Source of the DNA: Nitrospirota bacterium
GTDB taxonomy: Bacteria; Nitrospirota; Nitrospiria; Nitrospirales; UBA8639
Direction of reading: 5' to 3'
Assembly (NCBI GenBank): GCA_011088105.1
Contig: JAALKI010000009.1
Location: forward strand, 1-64,000
DNA: 64,000 bases
Part shown: in pieces, positions 1,817 through 61,625 of the stretch
How positions within the stretch are numbered: position 1 is the stretch's first letter
Layout of the letters: each line of letters opens with the position of its first letter
The notes under the pieces: generated by a model
Databases searched by the model: none
Told to the model about the DNA's origin: nothing
The model's input: only the letters and a program-made list of their open reading frames with translations
Made by a program: the position numbers and the translations under genes

Positions 1817-2677
1817 TTACCGTTTATTGAGATGTTTAAGGAATCCCGAATCAGGACTGAGGATAATCCGGTCCTCAGGAGAGAAGGTTTTTTTATAGGC
1901 TTCCATGGATCGGGTAAATTCAAAAAACTGAGGCCCTTTTTGATAGGCTGAGGCATAGGTGTTAAAGGCTTTGGCATCACCGGCCCCGCGCAATTCTTGG
2001 GCAGTCTTGTAAGCTTCAGCTAAGAGGATTTCCTTATCTTTTTCTGCTTCAGATCGAATTTTCTGGGCTTCCTCTGCCCCTTCCGCGCGATATTGCTTGG
2101 CTTGTCGTTCCCGCTCGGCGTGCATACGTGCAAAGATGGCCTTTTCGTTTTGCTCAGGAAGGTCGGCCCGTTTGATCCGCACGTCCAAGACTTCTAATCC
2201 AAAAGCTGAGGATATCTCATTGGCCCGTTTCGCGACCTCGGACATAATGATGAGCCGATTCGCGGAAACGATTTCGTTCAAGTCATGGCGTCCCAATTCA
2301 ACTCGAAGTTCCGAGTAAATGATATCATCCAGCCGTTGCAAGGCACCTCGTTGGGTTTGGAAGGCTTGGTAGACTTTCAAGGGATCGACGATGCGCCATT
2401 TCGCAAAATTATCGATCAAGATCGTCTTTTTGTCTTGTGTAATGACATCTCGGGCGGGTGCATCGTAATCAATGAGGCGCTTGTCAAAATAGGTCACCTC
2501 TTGAATAAAGGGAATTTTAAATTTGAGCCCAGGCTCGGTCACGGTGGCCACGGGTTTTCCCAATTGCACAACAATGGCTGTTTCGGTGAGATCCACAACA
2601 TAAAACGGAGAAATCCCGAGTGCGAACAACAGAAGAATCACTCCGGCAATCCCAAGAATAAGATGTTGTTTGGTCAT
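1817..2677 (-). CDS. hflC: HflC, SPFH-domain modulator of FtsH protease
   Basis: HflC pairs with HflK in a membrane cage that surrounds the FtsH protease and limits its access to membrane proteins. The 286-residue product has one N-terminal transmembrane segment (about residues 7-27), then the SPFH/band-7 domain and a long charged helix rich in Ala, Glu and Lys (about residues 185-235), as in the family. The ATG overlaps the hflK stop codon by four bases (ATGA), which indicates translational coupling. The length fits the usual HflC size. The assignment to HflC rather than HflK rests on gene order and the short N-terminus. Confidence 0.9.
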   Translation of the reverse strand: MTKQHLILGIAGVILLLFALGISPFYVVDLTETAIVVQLGKPVATVTEPGLKFKIPFIQEVTYFDKRLIDYDAPARDVITQDKKTILIDNFAKWRIVDPLKVYQAFQTQRGALQRLDDIIYSELRVELGRHDLNEIVSANRLIIMSEVAKRANEISSAFGLEVLDVRIKRADLPEQNEKAIFARMHAERERQAKQYRAEGAEEAQKIRSEAEKDKEILLAEAYKTAQELRGAGDAKAFNTYASAYQKGPQFFEFTRSMEAYKKTFSPEDRIILSPDSGFLKHLNKR

Positions 2678-15726: not shown

Positions 15727-16659
15727 ATGAAAAAAGCGGAAAAGGCAGTTATCGCTAGTGAGTTGCACGAACAATTTTCACGTGCACGATTGGCGATTGT
15801 TGCAGAGTGTGGGGGAATTCCGGTGAATCAGTTCACCTTGCTGCGTCGACAGTTGCGAGCTGCTCAGGCGGAGGTCAGGGTTGTGAAGAACACCATCGCG
15901 CAACGGGCTGTGGAGGGCACGACGCTTTTGCCCGTTAAGCTGTTGTTTAAAGGGCAAGTTGCGCTGATTATCGGATATGATGACCCCATCTTGCCGGCAA
16001 AGATTTTGCGAGATTTTATTCGAAGTGAAAAATGTGAAGAAAAGATTCGATATCGAGGCGGAGTACTTGAAGGGAATCCCGTCGAGCCTGTTCAGTTATT
16101 GGCTGCTGCTGATTTGCCGTCTCGAAACGAACTGTTATCCATGCTGTTATCTGTCTTGCAGGGCCCAATGCGGGGTCTTGCGGGTGCGTTGAGTGGCTTG
16201 TGCCGTGGTCTTGTTGCGGTCTTAGTTGCGATTCAAGAAAAAAGGAAAGGAGAGGGCCAAATGGCAACTGCAGAATCGAAGTTATCAAAAGATGAATTTA
16301 TTAGTGCTGTCGAGAGTATGAGTGTCCTGGAGTTATCCGAATTGGTTAAAGGTCTTGAGGATCGGTTTGGTGTCACAGCGGCAGCGCCTGTTGCGGTTGC
16401 GGCCGCTCCTGGCGGAGCGGCGGCAGCGCCTGCTGAGGAAGAGAAAGATGCTTTTGATGTCGTGCTTGCCACCGTCCCAGGTGATAAAAAGATTCAAGTG
16501 ATTAAGGTGGTTCGAGAGATCACAGGGCTTGGCTTGAAAGAAGCAAAGGATTTAGTTGAGTCCGCGCCCAAGGCTGTGAAAGAAGGTGCGTCAAAAGAAG
16601 AAGCTGAAACCATCAAGAAAAAGCTTGAAGAAGTTGGATCGACTGTAGAAGTGAAATGA
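15727..16659 (+). CDS. rplJ: Ribosomal protein L10 reading in frame into L7/L12 (rplJ-rplL fusion)
   Basis: L10 anchors L7/L12 dimers to the ribosome. Residues 1-178 are a normal L10, beginning [17 protein letters not shown] and ending in the helix that binds L7/L12. No stop codon follows: the frame continues directly into the L7/L12 initiator Met at residue 179 and ends at the L7/L12 stop, giving 310 residues. L10 and L7/L12 are normally separate genes with a short gap. An internal ribosome-binding site (AAGGAGAGG) before the L7/L12 ATG means free L7/L12 can still be made. Either this is a real fusion or the L10 stop was lost through a sequencing error; I cannot tell which. Confidence 0.85.
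16261..16659 (+). CDS. rplL: 50S ribosomal protein L7/L12
   Basis: L7/L12 recruits translation GTPases as the multi-copy stalk protein. From the internal ATG at 16261 the product is 132 residues: an N-terminal dimerisation domain ([18 protein letters not shown]), an Ala/Pro-rich hinge (about residues 40-65) and the C-terminal factor-binding domain with [21 protein letters not shown] ribosome-binding site lies six bases before this ATG. The same frame is open upstream into rplJ with no stop codon. Confidence 0.93.
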
Positions 16660-54505: not shown

Positions 54506-55615
54506 ATGACGAATCAACCATCCTCTGTGCGGGTGTCACTAGGCAAGCGAAGCTATGACATCCTGATTCAAGAAGACCTCATCGCGAACGTGGCCCAATA
54601 TCTTGCGCCTCTTAAATTGTCACGACAAGTCGGCATCATATCGAATGCCCGACTTCATCGTCTCTATGGAACAGTGCTGGTTCGACATCTACGAAAACAT
54701 GGCTATGAGCCGCACGTGATAATCCTTCCCGATGGAGAACAAGCAAAGACATTGAGGTGGGCCTCAAAGATTCTTGATGAATTAGTGGCTCAACGATTTG
54801 AACGACGGTCGGTGCTCTTGGCTCTAGGAGGAGGCGTCATTGGTGATATTACAGGGTTTGTGGCATCGATGTATCTTCGAGGCATTCCCTTTATTCAAAT
54901 CGCGACCTCCTTGGTTGCACAGGTAGATTCCAGTGTTGGTGGAAAAACTGGGGTGAATCATGCACGTGGAAAAAACTTGATTGGTGCCTTTTATCAACCA
55001 GCGCTTGTCCTCATAGACACTGCCGTTCTACTTACCTTGCCTAAGCGAGAATGGTTGGCTGGCTTGGCAGAGGTTATCAAGTATGGTGTCATCGCAGACG
55101 CCAAGTTTTTTGCCTATTTAGAACAACAGACACATGATATTTTGACAATGCAGCCCGAGGCCGTGCGGTATCTCGTCAAACGGTGTTGTGAGATTAAAGC
55201 CTCTGTGGTGCGCAAGGATGAGCGCGAGTCAGGGCTACGACAGATTTTAAATTATGGCCATACGGTTGGGCATGCCTTGGAGGCATTGGGAAAGTATCGC
55301 AAATGGATCCATGGCGAAGCCGTAGCCATGGGTATGGTACTCGAGGCGGAGATCAGCCATGCTCTTGGCTATTGTTCGGCAGAGATCGTAGAACGACAAC
55401 AACATCTGGTGCAGCGCGTGGGACTGCCTACCGGTCTGCCGTCTGTGACCACCTTCTCACAATTGTGGTCAGCGATGCTTCATGATAAAAAAGTCGTGTG
55501 TGGAGCCATCCATTGTGTGTTGCCCAGTCAGATAGGCAAGGTGACTGTTCAGCCATTGGAGCGAAGAGTGGTCAAACAATGGTTCCAAAAACGAGGACGG
55601 CAGCAGGCGACATGA
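54506..55615 (+). CDS. aroB: 3-dehydroquinate synthase
   Basis: Second enzyme of the shikimate pathway, converting DAHP to 3-dehydroquinate with NAD+ and a divalent metal. The 369-residue product has the nucleotide motif GGGVIGDITGFVAS, the segment QVDSSVGGKTGVNH and the metal-binding ILNYGHTVGHALE and IHGEAVAMG. All key residues are present. Its stop overlaps the ATG of the next gene (ATGA). Confidence 0.96.
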   Translation: MTNQPSSVRVSLGKRSYDILIQEDLIANVAQYLAPLKLSRQVGIISNARLHRLYGTVLVRHLRKHGYEPHVIILPDGEQAKTLRWASKILDELVAQRFERRSVLLALGGGVIGDITGFVASMYLRGIPFIQIATSLVAQVDSSVGGKTGVNHARGKNLIGAFYQPALVLIDTAVLLTLPKREWLAGLAEVIKYGVIADAKFFAYLEQQTHDILTMQPEAVRYLVKRCCEIKASVVRKDERESGLRQILNYGHTVGHALEALGKYRKWIHGEAVAMGMVLEAEISHALGYCSAEIVERQQHLVQRVGLPTGLPSVTTFSQLWSAMLHDKKVVCGAIHCVLPSQIGKVTVQPLERRVVKQWFQKRGRQQAT

Positions 55616-56898
55616 TGGCCAAGGAATCAAAAGAACACAAGGCAAATAAGAATAGCACAGCACTGCTGCGTGAACGAACGAGAGAAGTGGAAGTATTACA
55701 TCGCATTAGCGATTCCATTAGTAGCACATTGGATTTGGATGTGGTGCTCAAACAGATCGTTGAAGTGGTGGTTGAAGTGATGAAAGCAGATGCCTGCCTG
55801 TTATATTTGCTTTCCAACGACAAAGATGAATTAATTCTTCGGGCATCAAAAAACCCTCATCCCCGATTGATCGGTTGGATTTCCGTCACGCTTGGAGAAG
55901 GCATCACGGGGTGGGTGGCGAGAGAGCAGGTGCGTGTGGTCATTCCTCGTAAGGCGCATGACGATCCACGGTTTAAGTTCTTCCATAATTTGCCTGAAGA
56001 CCGATACGAGGCTTTTATTTCAGTGCCCATTGTGACCAAAGGAGAAGTCATCGGTGTCATCAATGTGCAACATAAGCGGTCAAAGCGTTATCAGGAGGCT
56101 GAACTGGCGCTCCTCTCCACCATTGGGAAACAGGTTGGTGGCGCTATCGAAAATGCGCGGTTGTACGAAGAAATGCGGCATCAGGCAATACAACTCGATA
56201 CGTTATCGCAAGTATCGGAGACGGTGTCATCCAATCGATTAATTGAGGAAGTGCTACAGCTGATCGTCACGATGACGGCTCAGATGATGAACTCTAAAAT
56301 TTTGTCGATTATGTTAGTGGATGAATCCAAAGGAGAGCTGAAGATTGCAGCGACGCAAAGTTTGAGCCAAGCCTATCGCCGGAAACCATCGCTGCAAATT
56401 GGGAAAAGCATCAGTGGCCGAGCCGTGAAGGAGCAAACCCCGCTCATGGTTTTGGACGTCACGAAGGAACGAGGATACTACTATCAAGACTTAGCCAAAT
56501 CTGAAGGGCTCGTGTCTATGCTTTCGGTTCCGATGGTGAGCAAAGAAAAGGCCATCGGGGTCATCAATACCTATACGTCGACGAGACATACCTATACGCC
56601 GGAAGAAATAAAAATCATGCAAGCCATTGCGAATCAGGCTGCGGTCGCGATTGAACATACGCGGCTCCTGGACAAGTCTTTTGAAATGCAGGAAGCGTTG
56701 ATGGTTCGAAAGCTGGTTGAGCGGGCCAAAGGCTATTTAATGAAATCGCGAGGTCTTTCAGAACACGAAGCTTTTCGGCTAATGCAACGTCAAAGTATGA
56801 ACATGCGCAAATCTATGCGTGAAATCGCGGAAGCCATTATTCTGGCGGAAGAATTGGAAGGACACCCGGGCGTATCATTGCTTGACAGGCGGTCTTGA
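55612..56898 (+). CDS. GAF-GAF-ANTAR transcription antitermination regulator
   Basis: The product, 428 residues from ATG 55612, has a short basic leader and a helix (residues about 20-45), a first GAF domain (about 40-190), a second GAF domain (about 205-360) and a C-terminal ANTAR domain (about 365-420). The ANTAR part shows the family pattern, with VERAKGYLMKSRGLSEHEAF and LMQRQSMNMRKSMREIAEAI. ANTAR domains bind paired RNA hairpins and block terminators, as in NasR, AmiR and EutV; GAF domains usually sense small molecules. The sensed signal here is unknown. It is coupled to aroB upstream, while the leader between it and nadE looks like an ANTAR target. Confidence 0.88.
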   Translation: MMAKESKEHKANKNSTALLRERTREVEVLHRISDSISSTLDLDVVLKQIVEVVVEVMKADACLLYLLSNDKDELILRASKNPHPRLIGWISVTLGEGITGWVAREQVRVVIPRKAHDDPRFKFFHNLPEDRYEAFISVPIVTKGEVIGVINVQHKRSKRYQEAELALLSTIGKQVGGAIENARLYEEMRHQAIQLDTLSQVSETVSSNRLIEEVLQLIVTMTAQMMNSKILSIMLVDESKGELKIAATQSLSQAYRRKPSLQIGKSISGRAVKEQTPLMVLDVTKERGYYYQDLAKSEGLVSMLSVPMVSKEKAIGVINTYTSTRHTYTPEEIKIMQAIANQAAVAIEHTRLLDKSFEMQEALMVRKLVERAKGYLMKSRGLSEHEAFRLMQRQSMNMRKSMREIAEAIILAEELEGHPGVSLLDRRS

Positions 56899-56945
56899 CG
56901 ATTGTTACAAGCGTGAACCGAAGACCTCTGACGTAGTATGGACGT

Positions 56946-56995
56946 CTGGCAGACAGCCAGGTGTTGAAAGATACACTCCAGGACAATGGCGTCCT
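56946..56995 (+). promoter_or_regulatory. Candidate ANTAR-binding RNA hairpins upstream of nadE
   Basis: Three small hairpins occur in series. One is CTGGC/GCCAG with a pentaloop (56946-56960). A second is GTGT/ACAC (56961-56976), whose loop is GAAAGA bounded by a U-U mismatch. The third is AGGAC/GTCCT (56980-56995), whose hexaloop AATGGC has A at position 1 and G at position 4, the ANTAR recognition pattern. The 3' arm of the third hairpin is also part of the terminator's 5' arm, so the two structures exclude each other. The upstream loop does not fit the A1/G4 rule, so the match is partial. Confidence 0.5.
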
Positions 56996-57027
56996 CAATC
57001 TCCGCTGGAGGTGAGGACGTTTTTTTT
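56990..57027 (+). terminator. Intrinsic terminator/attenuator abutting the nadE start
   Basis: CGTCCTCA (56990-56997) pairs perfectly with TGAGGACG (57012-57019), with an inner CTCC/GGAG stem (57000-57010), and is followed by eight T (57020-57027). The nadE ATG comes at 57028. The 3' arm contains the GAGGA ribosome-binding site, so the hairpin could block both transcription and translation of nadE. Confidence 0.75.
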
Positions 57028-58821
57028 ATGGGAATACTTCGACTCGCTATGGCACAGATGAACCCCACCGTTGGGGACGTGGAAGGGAATGTCCGAGCCA
57101 TCACGACATGGATCAGGAAAGCTCGTCAAGCCAAAGCCGATGTCGTGGTGTTTCCGGAATTAGCCATTACTGGATATCCACCAGAAGATTTGGTGCTCAG
57201 ACGTAGTTTTCTTCGAGAAAACAGAAAAGGGTTGGATATTGTTACACAGCGTTGTCAGGAAATTGTAGCCATTATTGGGTTTATTGATGAAGACACAGCT
57301 TGCCAGTCGCCAATTGTCAAGCCAAAGGTGCTTCCGTCCGGTCCTTGTAAAATTTTCAATGCGGCGGCTCTTGTGGCCAACCAAAGATGGGTCGGGACCT
57401 ATAGGAAGATGATTCTCCCGAATTATGGCGTCTTTGATGAAAGCCGATATTTTTACCCAGGTGAGCGACCTCTCGTCTGTATGGTCAATGGTGTCATGCT
57501 GGGGATCACGATCTGTGAGGATATGTGGTATGCCAATGGGCCGATTCGAACGGAGGTGATAGCGGGAGGCGCGGATGTGATTGTGAATATCAATGCGTCT
57601 CCGTTTCAAATAGGCAAACGGCAGACTCGAGAACAGATGTTGGTCACGCAGGCCCGGGAATATGGTGTCGTTGTCAGTTATACCAATATGGTTGGCGGGC
57701 AAGATGAATTGATCTTTGATGGAAATAGTCTGTTAGTGGATCACCATGGAGACGTTCTGGCCCATGGAAAAGCATTTGATGAAGATCTGTTGATTGTCGA
57801 TGTGACGGTGGAAGGTAAAGGCAAACAGGCTGACACAAAGATAAGCAAGAAGATCATAAGCAAAAACGCTCAGGGCAAGATGGAGCGAATTATCGTCTCA
57901 AAAACTGCTGCGCCCCTAAAACCAAGGCGGCGGTCTGCTCGACGATCAGTCAGACATGAACCATTGGCAGATGTGTATCAGGCCTTGGTCTTGGGAGTGC
58001 GGGATTATGTCAAAAAGAACATGTTTCAGCAGGTTGTGATTGGGCTAAGTGGGGGAATTGATTCGGCGTTGACACTGATCATTGCGGCAGATGCCTTAGG
58101 TCCTTCTCAGGTGTTGAGTGTCTGTATGCCGTCACCTTTTACCTCAAAGGAAAGTCGTGAGGATGCTGGGCGTATAGCAAAGCAGTTGGATGTTCCCTTG
58201 CTTCGTATTCCTATTACAAAAGTGTTGAACAATTATCTTGGGCTGTTGTCGCCAGCGTTTCAGGGACGAGCGGTTGACACAACAGAAGAAAACCTCCAGG
58301 CAAGAATTCGTGGAAACATCCTCATGGCGCTGTCGAATAAATTTGGATATTTGGTCTTGACCACCGGCAATAAAAGCGAAATGAGTGTGGGATATGCCAC
58401 GCTGTATGGCGATATGGCTGGCGGGTTTGCCGTGATTAAAGATGTATCCAAAACACTAGTGTATGAGTTGGCTCAGTGGCGCAATCACCAATCGAGCCAG
58501 ATGTACCCTGAGGGGGTCATTCCCAAACGAATTCTTGAACGAGAGCCGTCCGCAGAATTACGGGCGAATCAAATTGATCAGGATACGTTACCACCGTATG
58601 ATATTTTGGATCCTATCTTAGAGGCCTACGTAGAGGAAGATCGATCCGTTGAGGACATTGTCGCCATGGGATTCACACGTGCCACGGTTACACGCGTTTT
58701 GGCCCTGGTTGATCGAAGTGAATACAAACGTCGGCAAGCGCCATTAGGGATCAAGATCACACAACGGGCTTTAGGCAAAGATCGTCGTGTGCCAGTGACG
58801 AATCGCTATACGAAGTATTAG
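57028..58821 (+). CDS. nadE: Glutamine-dependent NAD+ synthetase
   Basis: Makes NAD+ from nicotinic acid adenine dinucleotide, with ammonia drawn from glutamine. The 597-residue product has an N-terminal nitrilase-like glutaminase domain with its Glu-Lys-Cys triad (FPELAITGYPPEDL; RKMILPNYGVFDE; TICEDMWY) and a C-terminal synthetase domain with the P-loop GLSGGIDSALT. A basic linker of about 40 residues (rich in Lys and Arg) joins them. ATG 57028 fits the family N-terminus; an in-frame ATG at 56986 would start inside the attenuator. The terminator-like leader suggests regulation by the preceding ANTAR protein. glnD follows after 53 bases. Confidence 0.95.
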   Translation: MGILRLAMAQMNPTVGDVEGNVRAITTWIRKARQAKADVVVFPELAITGYPPEDLVLRRSFLRENRKGLDIVTQRCQEIVAIIGFIDEDTACQSPIVKPKVLPSGPCKIFNAAALVANQRWVGTYRKMILPNYGVFDESRYFYPGERPLVCMVNGVMLGITICEDMWYANGPIRTEVIAGGADVIVNINASPFQIGKRQTREQMLVTQAREYGVVVSYTNMVGGQDELIFDGNSLLVDHHGDVLAHGKAFDEDLLIVDVTVEGKGKQADTKISKKIISKNAQGKMERIIVSKTAAPLKPRRRSARRSVRHEPLADVYQALVLGVRDYVKKNMFQQVVIGLSGGIDSALTLIIAADALGPSQVLSVCMPSPFTSKESREDAGRIAKQLDVPLLRIPITKVLNNYLGLLSPAFQGRAVDTTEENLQARIRGNILMALSNKFGYLVLTTGNKSEMSVGYATLYGDMAGGFAVIKDVSKTLVYELAQWRNHQSSQMYPEGVIPKRILEREPSAELRANQIDQDTLPPYDILDPILEAYVEEDRSVEDIVAMGFTRATVTRVLALVDRSEYKRRQAPLGIKITQRALGKDRRVPVTNRYTKY

Positions 58822-58874: not shown

Positions 58875-61625
58875 ATGAGGGACGTCGCTCATATGAATGC
58901 AGAGATCACGTTTGCCAGACAACAGACGCAACGCATTGATGGCGAGACGCTCTCGGCACAAACCGTGCTTCAAGCGCGGCGAGACGAGTTGCATCATCGC
59001 TTGTTGCAGGGAGCATCTGGCTCAGAAATGATCACCGTGTTTACGGATTTGGTCGATGCGGTGTTAATCAGCCGCTATGAAAAAGTCATTCGTCAAGAAA
59101 CAGCGGAGGTTCTCTTAGGGTTGCAGCATTGTTGTCTGGTGGCTGTTGGAGGATATGGCCGTCGTGAATTGGCACCGTATTCAGATATTGATGTCATGGT
59201 ATTGTTTCAAACAGGCGGAGGCAACGTTGTTTCATCGTTGTCATCGCAGGTCTTCTACCATCTTTGGGATTTGGGATTTCAGGTCGGACATAGTGTGCGA
59301 ACGATTCAAGAGGGCCTGGCTATTGCTGAAGGTGACCTTTCGACCAGAACGGCCTTGATGGAATCACGTTTCTTGGCCGGGAACAGGCAAGTGTTTCAGA
59401 ATTTCACGCGTCGGTTCCAACGGAAGATTCTAGGACGTCGTCCTGATGGATTTATCAATGGCAAACGGGAAGAGCGTCGTCGAGAATATGCCAAATTTGG
59501 TGAAACGGTGTATTTGCTTGAACCGAATATCAAAAAAACGAAAGGTGGATTGCGTGACCTGCACCTCCTGCAATGGGTGGGGATGGCCAAATATCAAGCT
59601 TCGACGCTTCGAGAACTGGCTGACCGAGGGGTCCTCGCAAACCAGGATTATCTGGCGCTCGTTGAAGCAAGAGAGTTTCTCTGGCGGGTGAGAGCCTTTC
59701 TCCATTTCTATGCCGGAAGGGCTCAGGACATTCTGACGTTTGATGAACAAGTTCGAGTCGCCGCGCACTTTGGGTTTTCCGATCGCCCTCACCTGTTGGC
59801 GGTTGAGCAGTTCATGCAACGGTATTATCGTCATACCACTGGCATTCATGATCGATGTCAGCGCTTTCTTGATCGTGCTCAGGAGAGAAGGTGGTGGAAG
59901 AAGATTCGTCAGATAATGCCGATCTCACTCGTTGCCGAATGTTTCCAGATCTCAGGGGCACGGGTCACCGTTCCTTCTGAGAAAGTGCGATATATTTTAG
60001 ATCACCCAGACGTGCTCCTTGAGTTATTTCAATTAGCTCAAAAGCAGTCGCTGACTGTTGATAGTGTGGTGTTGGATGAACTGTCTCGTCAACTAGAAGG
60101 CAGTCAAGATGATGCCTATCGGATACCGTTAGTGAGTCAACGCTTTCGGCAAATCCTTTCGGGCCCCAAGCGAATTGCTGATACGTTAGAAGCGATGCAT
60201 CGTGCTCGTCTCTTAGAAAAAATCATCCCGGCTTTTGGTCGGGTTCGGGGCTTGATGCAGTTTAATCAGTATCATAAATACACTGTGGACGAGCATAGTG
60301 TGTTAGCTGTGCGTCAGGCGGAAGGGCTCGCCGATGACCAGGGACTGCTTGGAGATGTCTATCGGGATATGCGTAATAAAGATTTGCTGCACTTGGCCTT
60401 GTTGCTGCATGATCTTGGCAAAGGATTACCAGGGGATCATAGCGAGGTTGGTAAAGAGATTGCGCAAGATACAGCGAGCCGCCTGGGGTTCAACCCGCAA
60501 GAAACAAGAACCTTAGAGTTTTTAGTGCATCAGCATTTGCTAATGGCGCATACCGCTTTTCGCCGCGATCCTTATGACGAAAAGGTGTTGTTGACCTTTG
60601 CCAAAGCCGTGGGGACACCTGACATCCTGCGTAAACTGTATGTCCTGACGATCGCCGATATTGCGGCGGTTGGGCCACAGACTTTGACAAAGTGGAAAGA
60701 ATCTCTCTTAGCTGAACTGTTTTGTCGAACATTGCCGGAAGTGTCGGGTGGACGTGAAGGTATCACCGCACCGGTCGATATTGCACGCTTGGCTGAAGAG
60801 GTGTGTCAGGCATTGCCTGAATCTGTTGCATCCCATCAAATGGGCAAGGCAGATGTCATCGACGCCGAGTGGGTACAATCGCAACTCACACAGTTTCCTA
60901 TTCGATACGTCTCGGGGACTCCACCTGATCGTATTGCCGCGCATCTTATGGCAATTAATCAGCTTACCCCAGAAGATCCTATTGTCACTTCTGCCTATCA
61001 TCCATCCCTCAATATTTGTGAATATACATTAGTGGTGTATGACAGGATGATACCAGGAATCTTTATGCATGTATCGGGAGGTTTAGCGGCAAAAGGCTTG
61101 GAAGTGTTAGACGCTCAGATTATCACTCGAGAGGACGGTATCGTCATCGATTCATTTTTTGCCACTGACCCTGATTTCCAAGGAGCACCATCAGCGCAAC
61201 GGTTGGACAACGTCGGCCAGACCATTACAAGGATTTTGAAGGGCAACGATTCCGTTGCACAGTTGATGGGCCGGAATCATCGTCTCGCCTTGAGCCAACC
61301 CTTTCCGCATGATCAATTTCAGACAGAGGTGCATATCGATAATGAGACGTCGGCTACATTTACCCTTATCGACGTGTTTGCAGAAAATCGGCAGGGGCTC
61401 TTGTATGTAATGGCTTGTTCTATTTTTAACCTTGGACTAGTCCTGCATGCAGCCAGAATTTCTACGAGGTTAGATCAAGTGGTGGATGTATTTTATGTGA
61501 CTAATGACGCTGGCATGAAGGTCGACGATACGAATGTTCGTGAATCAGTCCGGAAGACAGTGCGACAAGATGTTGACCAATTCTTAGAGAAAAGCAAAAA
61601 AAACACGACCTCTCCTTCCCATTGA
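58875..61625 (+). CDS. glnD: PII uridylyltransferase / uridylyl-removing enzyme GlnD
   Basis: GlnD senses glutamine and modifies PII proteins, setting the nitrogen response. The 916-residue product has the nucleotidyltransferase motif GGYGRRELAPYSDIDVMV (about residue 94), a helical linker, an HD domain (LLLHDLGKG; DEHSVLAV) for de-uridylylation, and two C-terminal ACT domains (about residues 725-800 and 830-905). All domains look intact. The gene lies directly after nadE, another glutamine-using enzyme, and both may share the leader upstream of nadE. The start ATG 58875 is preferred; ATG 58893 is possible. Confidence 0.95.
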   Translation: MRDVAHMNAEITFARQQTQRIDGETLSAQTVLQARRDELHHRLLQGASGSEMITVFTDLVDAVLISRYEKVIRQETAEVLLGLQHCCLVAVGGYGRRELAPYSDIDVMVLFQTGGGNVVSSLSSQVFYHLWDLGFQVGHSVRTIQEGLAIAEGDLSTRTALMESRFLAGNRQVFQNFTRRFQRKILGRRPDGFINGKREERRREYAKFGETVYLLEPNIKKTKGGLRDLHLLQWVGMAKYQASTLRELADRGVLANQDYLALVEAREFLWRVRAFLHFYAGRAQDILTFDEQVRVAAHFGFSDRPHLLAVEQFMQRYYRHTTGIHDRCQRFLDRAQERRWWKKIRQIMPISLVAECFQISGARVTVPSEKVRYILDHPDVLLELFQLAQKQSLTVDSVVLDELSRQLEGSQDDAYRIPLVSQRFRQILSGPKRIADTLEAMHRARLLEKIIPAFGRVRGLMQFNQYHKYTVDEHSVLAVRQAEGLADDQGLLGDVYRDMRNKDLLHLALLLHDLGKGLPGDHSEVGKEIAQDTASRLGFNPQETRTLEFLVHQHLLMAHTAFRRDPYDEKVLLTFAKAVGTPDILRKLYVLTIADIAAVGPQTLTKWKESLLAELFCRTLPEVSGGREGITAPVDIARLAEEVCQALPESVASHQMGKADVIDAEWVQSQLTQFPIRYVSGTPPDRIAAHLMAINQLTPEDPIVTSAYHPSLNICEYTLVVYDRMIPGIFMHVSGGLAAKGLEVLDAQIITREDGIVIDSFFATDPDFQGAPSAQRLDNVGQTITRILKGNDSVAQLMGRNHRLALSQPFPHDQFQTEVHIDNETSATFTLIDVFAENRQGLLYVMACSIFNLGLVLHAARISTRLDQVVDVFYVTNDAGMKVDDTNVRESVRKTVRQDVDQFLEKSKKNTTSPSH

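Follow-up and report, generated by a model that had tools for sequence, protein, structure and literature searches.

A putative ANTAR-controlled transcription attenuator ahead of nadE-glnD and a predicted nitrogen regulon in Nitrospirales

In this study, we propose that the leader of nadE in a bacterium of the order Nitrospirales is a protein-controlled transcription attenuator, worked by a GAF-GAF-ANTAR protein in response to a nitrogen signal, and we put the probability of this reading at roughly 0.83. Moreover, the sequence comparisons point to nadE being one member of a nitrogen regulon, and it seems that one RNA-binding protein runs the nitrogen supply of these Nitrospirales bacteria.

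Anatomy of the nadE leader and its neighbouring ANTAR protein

The window, that is the whole stretch of DNA that was analysed (64,000 nt; Nitrospirota bacterium, assembly GCA_011088105.1, contig JAALKI010000009.1, positions 1-64,000, plus strand), contains the following features.

55612-56898, plus strand: gene of the GAF-GAF-ANTAR protein (428 aa), the proposed antiterminator; identified by Pfam
56882-56911, plus strand: putative leader promoter, TTGACA (56882-56887), 18-nt spacer and TACAAG (56906-56911); from sequence and conservation, without transcript mapping
56941-56965, plus strand: P1-equivalent (recruitment) hairpin, GACGTCTGGC-AGACA-GCCAGGTGTT; from folding, covariance model R2 and position
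56980-56995, plus strand: P2 (antitermination) hairpin, AGGAC-AATGGC-GTCCT; from sequence, folding and conservation
56990-57027, plus strand: intrinsic terminator, stem 56990-57019 and T8 tract 57020-57027; from sequence, folding and covariation
57028-58821, plus strand: nadE, glutamine-dependent NAD+ synthase (597 aa), first proposed regulated gene; identified by Pfam and NCBIfam
58875-61625, plus strand: glnD, PII uridylyltransferase, second gene of the proposed operon; identified by Pfam

The identities that the earlier note had given to the three genes were upheld by Pfam. The regulator gene, whose start codon overlaps the stop of aroB, encodes two GAF domains and an ANTAR domain scoring 70.7 bits (cut-off 27.3), and its product is the sole ANTAR protein of the genome. 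NadE carries the Pfam NAD_synthase and glutaminase domains and matches NCBIfam PRK13981 at 730 bits; the nadE-glnD order is also present in the closest relative (L137). In sequence, the first GAF domain is near that of PtsP/EI-Ntr (E 6e-22 among solved structures, a match ranked behind the conserved-domain protein 3e0y), and it is also near the NifA-like Nlh1. GAF domains of these types are linked to the sensing of glutamine or 2-oxoglutarate. The ANTAR domain can be aligned to EutV and NasR, and seven of the 11 residues with which EutV contacts RNA are identical in it (R142, K143, K149, E160, M172, N173 and R175; residue list from PMC8934654), two are conservatively changed (K147 to R, Y164 to F) and two differ (R168 to Q, R177 to S). 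Some 50 genomes of the order have orthologues with 60-81% identity, and none of the order's ANTAR-positive genomes encodes more than one ANTAR protein. Endomicrobiales genomes (L187, L188) also have a GAF-GAF-ANTAR protein, with 50-51% identity, to which nadE is not adjacent; neither nadE nor a comparable leader was found behind these homologous genes.

The hairpin at 56980-56995, which the earlier note had described together with its A1/G4 loop AATGGC, was recovered by direct reading and by script. Its hexaloop with A1 and G4 and its C-G closing pair satisfy the P2 criterion of a dual-hexaloop ANTAR target (at least 3 bp), and the 18-nt hexaloop hairpin folds at -6.2 kcal/mol (z -3.1 against shuffles). 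The terminator, with arms CGTCCTCA...TGAGGACG at 56990-57019, folds at -21.1 kcal/mol (shuffle mean -9.2, z -5.0), and its T8 tract does run up to the nadE ATG (57028-57030), as had been claimed. The sharing of GTCCT between the 3' arm of P2 and the 5' arm of the terminator was likewise verified; since the one arm is the other, the two structures are mutually exclusive, and the exclusion criterion for an ANTAR target is met (-21.1 for the terminator vs -6.2 kcal/mol for P2). Upstream of the start codon by 11 nt, GGAGGTGAGG is likely the ribosome-binding site; because it lies inside the terminator 3' arm, we infer that translation may be masked too. The promoter-like element overlaps the 3' end of the ANTAR gene.

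The partner hairpin first suggested for P2, with a GAAAGA loop at 56961-56976, was rejected: the stronger hairpin at 56941-56965 competes with it and is the one taken as P1 by model R2. This P1 has 10 bp, a C-G closing pair and the pentaloop AGACA, in which A1 is present and G4 absent; it folds at -11.3 kcal/mol (z -2.6 against shuffles) and occupies the same position as the canonical P1 of relatives. Under the strict dual-hexaloop definition (PMC3369931), P2 of the window passes and P1 fails. The P1 hexaloop criterion is met in many relatives, with A or G allowed at position 1.

When the 64-kb window was searched on both strands for C-[AG]NNGNN-G hairpins feeding a terminator through their 3' arm, no second site came up. 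The terminator at 56990-57027 was missed by the generic terminator scan, probably owing to an unpaired A in its stem. A start at the in-frame ATG at 56986, within the P2 loop, was rejected on the grounds that this ATG is lacking in many relatives (AAAGGC, AAGGGC); the start codon behind the T-tract is kept in relatives. A possible 9-codon reading frame in the leader, from the ATG at 56938, was noticed by eye only and set aside.

Conservation and paired changes in Nitrospirales

We show that the unit of P2 and terminator is present in 38 of the 40 Nitrospirales loci in which 60 nt or more separate nadE from the ANTAR gene upstream of it; one exception has the terminator half only (L008) and the other neither part (L032). 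Among 34 distinct nadE leaders, A at loop position 2 and G at loop position 4 are invariant, and the stem GGAC/GTCC is fixed save for one GGGC. The TTGACA-18-TACAAG form of the promoter is kept in several related genera. The closest relative (L002) has a canonical P1, ggagacGACGAAgtctcc, in its nadE leader, and a C-G closed [A/G]NNGNN hairpin of this kind occurs in many further nadE leaders, including 12 of the 13 found in a scan of named genomes that partly overlaps the first set. Several nadE leaders of the family are without canonical P1.

Two covariance models were used. R1 consists of P2 and the terminator of nadE leaders alone, with structure taken from RNAalifold and only three bases upstream of P2; R2 comprises P1, the P2 sequence and the terminator. 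Under R2, the window leader obtains 47.8 bits (E 4e-7 for the genome), compared with 50.6 bits for the urt leader of the same genome. In an alignment of 32 leaders, 5/6 pairs of P1 and 8/12 pairs of the terminator change on both sides yet stay paired, well in excess of what shuffled and slid controls give. Because P1 rows had been selected by pairing, the terminator offers the cleaner evidence; among its pairs, loop position 6 co-varies with the first base of the tail (C-G in 21, A-U in 11). The earlier note had set absence of P2 conservation or covariation in relatives as one of two refutation tests, and the sequences decide this test in the note's favour. P2 is conserved across the order together with its overlap with the terminator. 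Its stem (GGAC/GTCC) hardly varies across leaders (alignment A7), so that P2 is supported by invariance and not by covariation. The site list itself demanded GG[AG]C and GTCC. An R2 match in an ANTAR-less genome (G048) was set aside as an ordinary terminator with no hexaloops.

Other arrangements were seen ahead of nadE. In family f2 (L043-L050) there are two tandem attenuators about 200 nt upstream: the first unit, a canonical pair of hairpins, reads TAGCAC-GAAGAT-GTGCTA followed by GAC-GACGGC-GTC, which overlaps the first terminator, and after that terminator comes a second hexaloop-terminator unit. The leader is missing from five nadE genes that follow ANTAR (L017, L019, L032, L039, L040), and a sixth has lost the P2 half; the leaderless gaps are mostly 7-52 nt, and 108 nt in L032. 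Such nadE genes probably depend on the aroB-ANTAR transcript. The same leaderless arrangement is found at L178 and L182-L184.

Leaders of a predicted nitrogen regulon and competing explanations

When R1 was run over 60 genomes it recovered the nadE leaders plus additional sites, and 40 of these additional loci were retrieved for gene content. The genes behind them encode BBP2 porins (13), FNT nitrite transporters (10), sigma-54 activators (7), ExtI-like porins (4), NrtA-like binding proteins (2) and others (4). In longer stretches, NirA comes after FNT, in some cases with cyanase in between, and NrtA is followed by NrtB and NrtC/D. A canonical P1 (at least 4 bp, within 58 nt before P2) is found at 33 of these 40 sites (dinucleotide shuffles: mean 0.85, maximum 4) and at 15 of 44 nadE sites (1.3 in shuffles); as R1 contained no P1, the former count is an independent test. 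In the genome of the window the sole other site (L083/L136; G000:C61:16508-16561, minus strand; leader 16508-16604) precedes an ExtI-like porin, UrtA, UrtB, UrtC, a further ABC ATPase, UrtE and urease. The reading of the nadE leader as an ANTAR switch, proposed in the earlier note, gains support from conservation, from its R2 score and from the paired changes in P1 and terminator. The note had seen a single target only; the evidence points to a regulon of nitrogen genes.

Variants of the leader occur as well. At eight loci (L085, L090, L092, L097, L102, L105, L106, L107) the P2 loop has 7 nt (e.g. AATGAAC) and is closed by GGAC/GTCC, in FNT and sigma-54 leaders. Outside the order, at class level, a dual-hexaloop leader with terminator lies before glutamine synthetase (L144, G199, about 2180-2230, minus strand), and P2-hexaloop leaders lie before sigma-54 activators (L140, L142).

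The pentaloop of the window P1, without G4, is counter-evidence to our reading, the work on EutV having found G4 to be needed (PMC8934654). The nadE leaders that lack a canonical P1, and the nadE genes behind ANTAR without an intact leader, also count against it. It is possible that in this genome and in some related genera the nadE leader has decayed to a single hexaloop, P1 no longer recruiting the protein and the attenuator being weak, constitutive or P2-only; we consider this unlikely, yet it is the alternative that survives best. A single hexaloop is the minimal binding motif in the EutV studies (PMC8934654), and the nadE leaders of genus g3 have P2 but no canonical P1, though other leaders in the same genomes retain P1. 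Against decay, P2, the terminator, the T-tract at the ATG and the promoter are all intact in these genomes, and both P1 hairpins of the window's genome have 5-nt loops (AGACA at nadE, AGTGT at urt), so that the change may be tolerated. EutV contacts hexaloops one at a time (PMC8934654), for which reason a switch centred on P2 is still plausible, but the response of the window leader may be weaker than in relatives.

The leaders and the protein go together across genomes. Of the 56 genomes of the order in a phylum sample, 54 show agreement between protein and R2 leaders (40 with both, 14 with neither, one with the protein only, G235, and one with a leader only, G209; Fisher p 4e-11, uncorrected for shared ancestry). 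As the ANTAR-less genomes belong mostly to one genus and one family, this co-occurrence rests on few evolutionary events. No such leader was seen at nadE in the ANTAR-less genomes examined (in G052 the start was not located by script). The leader found without a detected ANTAR protein (L152, G209:C17:157078-157171) is a canonical dual-hexaloop leader with terminator and has no clear gene just downstream; it may be a remnant or, alternatively, a small RNA.

This tracking of the ANTAR gene by the hexaloop hairpins speaks against a metabolite riboswitch, a leader-peptide attenuator or a translational switch in which the ANTAR protein takes no part. Such a switch would fit the covering of the likely ribosome-binding site by the terminator 3' arm, through which translation may be affected; it remains very improbable, given that no Rfam family matches the leader, at gathering score or up to E 1, and that the conserved parts are small hexaloop hairpins obeying the known sequence rules of ANTAR targets. 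Scarcely any credence can be given to the notion, suggested by the position of the terminator directly behind the ANTAR gene, that it only ends the aroB-ANTAR transcript while nadE has its own constitutive promoter and the hexaloop is there by chance: the T-tract reaches the nadE ATG and leaves no space for a downstream promoter, the conserved promoter sits upstream of the terminator, the hexaloop recurs ahead of unrelated nitrogen operons, and three nadE genes on contigs other than that of the ANTAR gene (L063, L064, L067) keep promoter, hexaloop and terminator, which is therefore not merely the end of the ANTAR transcript.

Proposed mechanism and comparison with known systems

We return to the attenuator worked by the GAF-GAF-ANTAR protein, the mechanism of which is inferred by analogy with EutV and NasR; there are no expression or binding data, and promoter use, RNA binding, antitermination and ligand are all inferred, while the sequences themselves show the anatomy, its conservation, the paired changes, the regulon and the co-occurrence. 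Transcription would start at the promoter at 56882-56911, for a leader some 110 nt long. The final 38 nt would by default fold as the intrinsic terminator and also mask the likely ribosome-binding site, and nadE-glnD would be off or low. When the GAF domains are in their signalling state, the ANTAR domains are presumed to bind P1 and then the P2 hexaloop; P2, held closed, would block the terminator and allow the polymerase to enter nadE-glnD, the direction of control (antitermination) being itself an inference. The same protein would act on the like leaders of the urea, nitrite, nitrate, cyanate and porin operons, and because leaders precede these operons nitrogen status is the most likely signal. 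A nitrogen link for nadE is sensible, since PII is known to control the activity of the NadE enzyme (PMC7196632) and glnD follows nadE.

As a tentative extension, to which we give slightly less than even odds, a single GAF-GAF-ANTAR protein might be the main regulator of nitrogen supply in Nitrospirales, acting on RNA and not on DNA, and opening the attenuators that govern uptake of urea, nitrite, nitrate and cyanate, as well as those ahead of a sigma-54 activator and nadE-glnD, with some nadE leaders being natural single-hexaloop antiterminators. If the proposed control is true, NAD synthesis and PII signalling would be coupled to nitrogen status through nadE and glnD, which would extend ANTAR attenuation to both. 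One GAF-ANTAR protein gains a defined, testable set of RNA targets. The Nitrospirales include nitrite oxidisers and complete ammonia oxidisers, and the regulon offers a possible mechanism for nitrogen-source switching in Nitrospira-type nitrifiers. Moreover, the natural variants of P1 (hexaloop, pentaloop or absent) allow a test of one versus two hexaloops, which the work on EutV left open.

The remark in the earlier note, which knew of no described ANTAR control of NAD synthesis, is consistent with our literature search, in which, supplementary tables excluded, no published description of it and no paper linking ANTAR to Nitrospira or nadE was found. ANTAR is absent from the main text of a 2025 comparison of Nitrospirales genomes. 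GAF-ANTAR proteins are part of the large one-component ANTAR subclass, of which only NasR (NIT-ANTAR) and PAL (PAS and LOV) were named as characterised in 2020 (PMC7496416).

Among known systems, EutV and the eutP/G/S/A leaders of Enterococcus faecalis share with the present one the A1 and G4 hexaloops, the overlap of P2 with the terminator and, at seven of 11 positions, identical RNA-contact residues in the ANTAR domain. They differ in having a two-component receiver domain and control by ethanolamine. Linkers between P1 and P2 have 5-12 nt in E. faecalis eut, against a median of 23 nt (range 10-41) across our 48 scored leaders. The window has 14 nt (56966-56979), a length within the known-target range; in ANTAR targets of actinobacteria the range is 2-25 nt. 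NasR and the nasF leader of Klebsiella oxytoca are alike in that a one-component ANTAR antiterminator serves nitrogen assimilation through C-G closed A1/G4 loops; in contrast, a NIT domain senses nitrate there and one locus is described, whereas here there are two GAF domains, several operons and an NAD synthase target. In the available portion of PMC3369931, ANTAR regulons predicted by covariance (nitrogenase in Pelobacter, glutamate synthase in Desulfotomaculum) similarly place targets ahead of several nitrogen operons per genome, in other phyla and with other genes; that portion, supplementary tables not covered, names no nadE, urea, nitrite or cyanate operon. Control of NadE by PII (PMC7196632) also couples glutamine-dependent NAD synthesis to nitrogen status, but by protein contact on the enzyme and not on the transcript. 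ANTAR attenuation is a known mechanism, and what we rate as new are the GAF-GAF sensor, the nadE-glnD target, the long linkers, the frequent G at loop position 1 and a P1 that is non-canonical or lacking.
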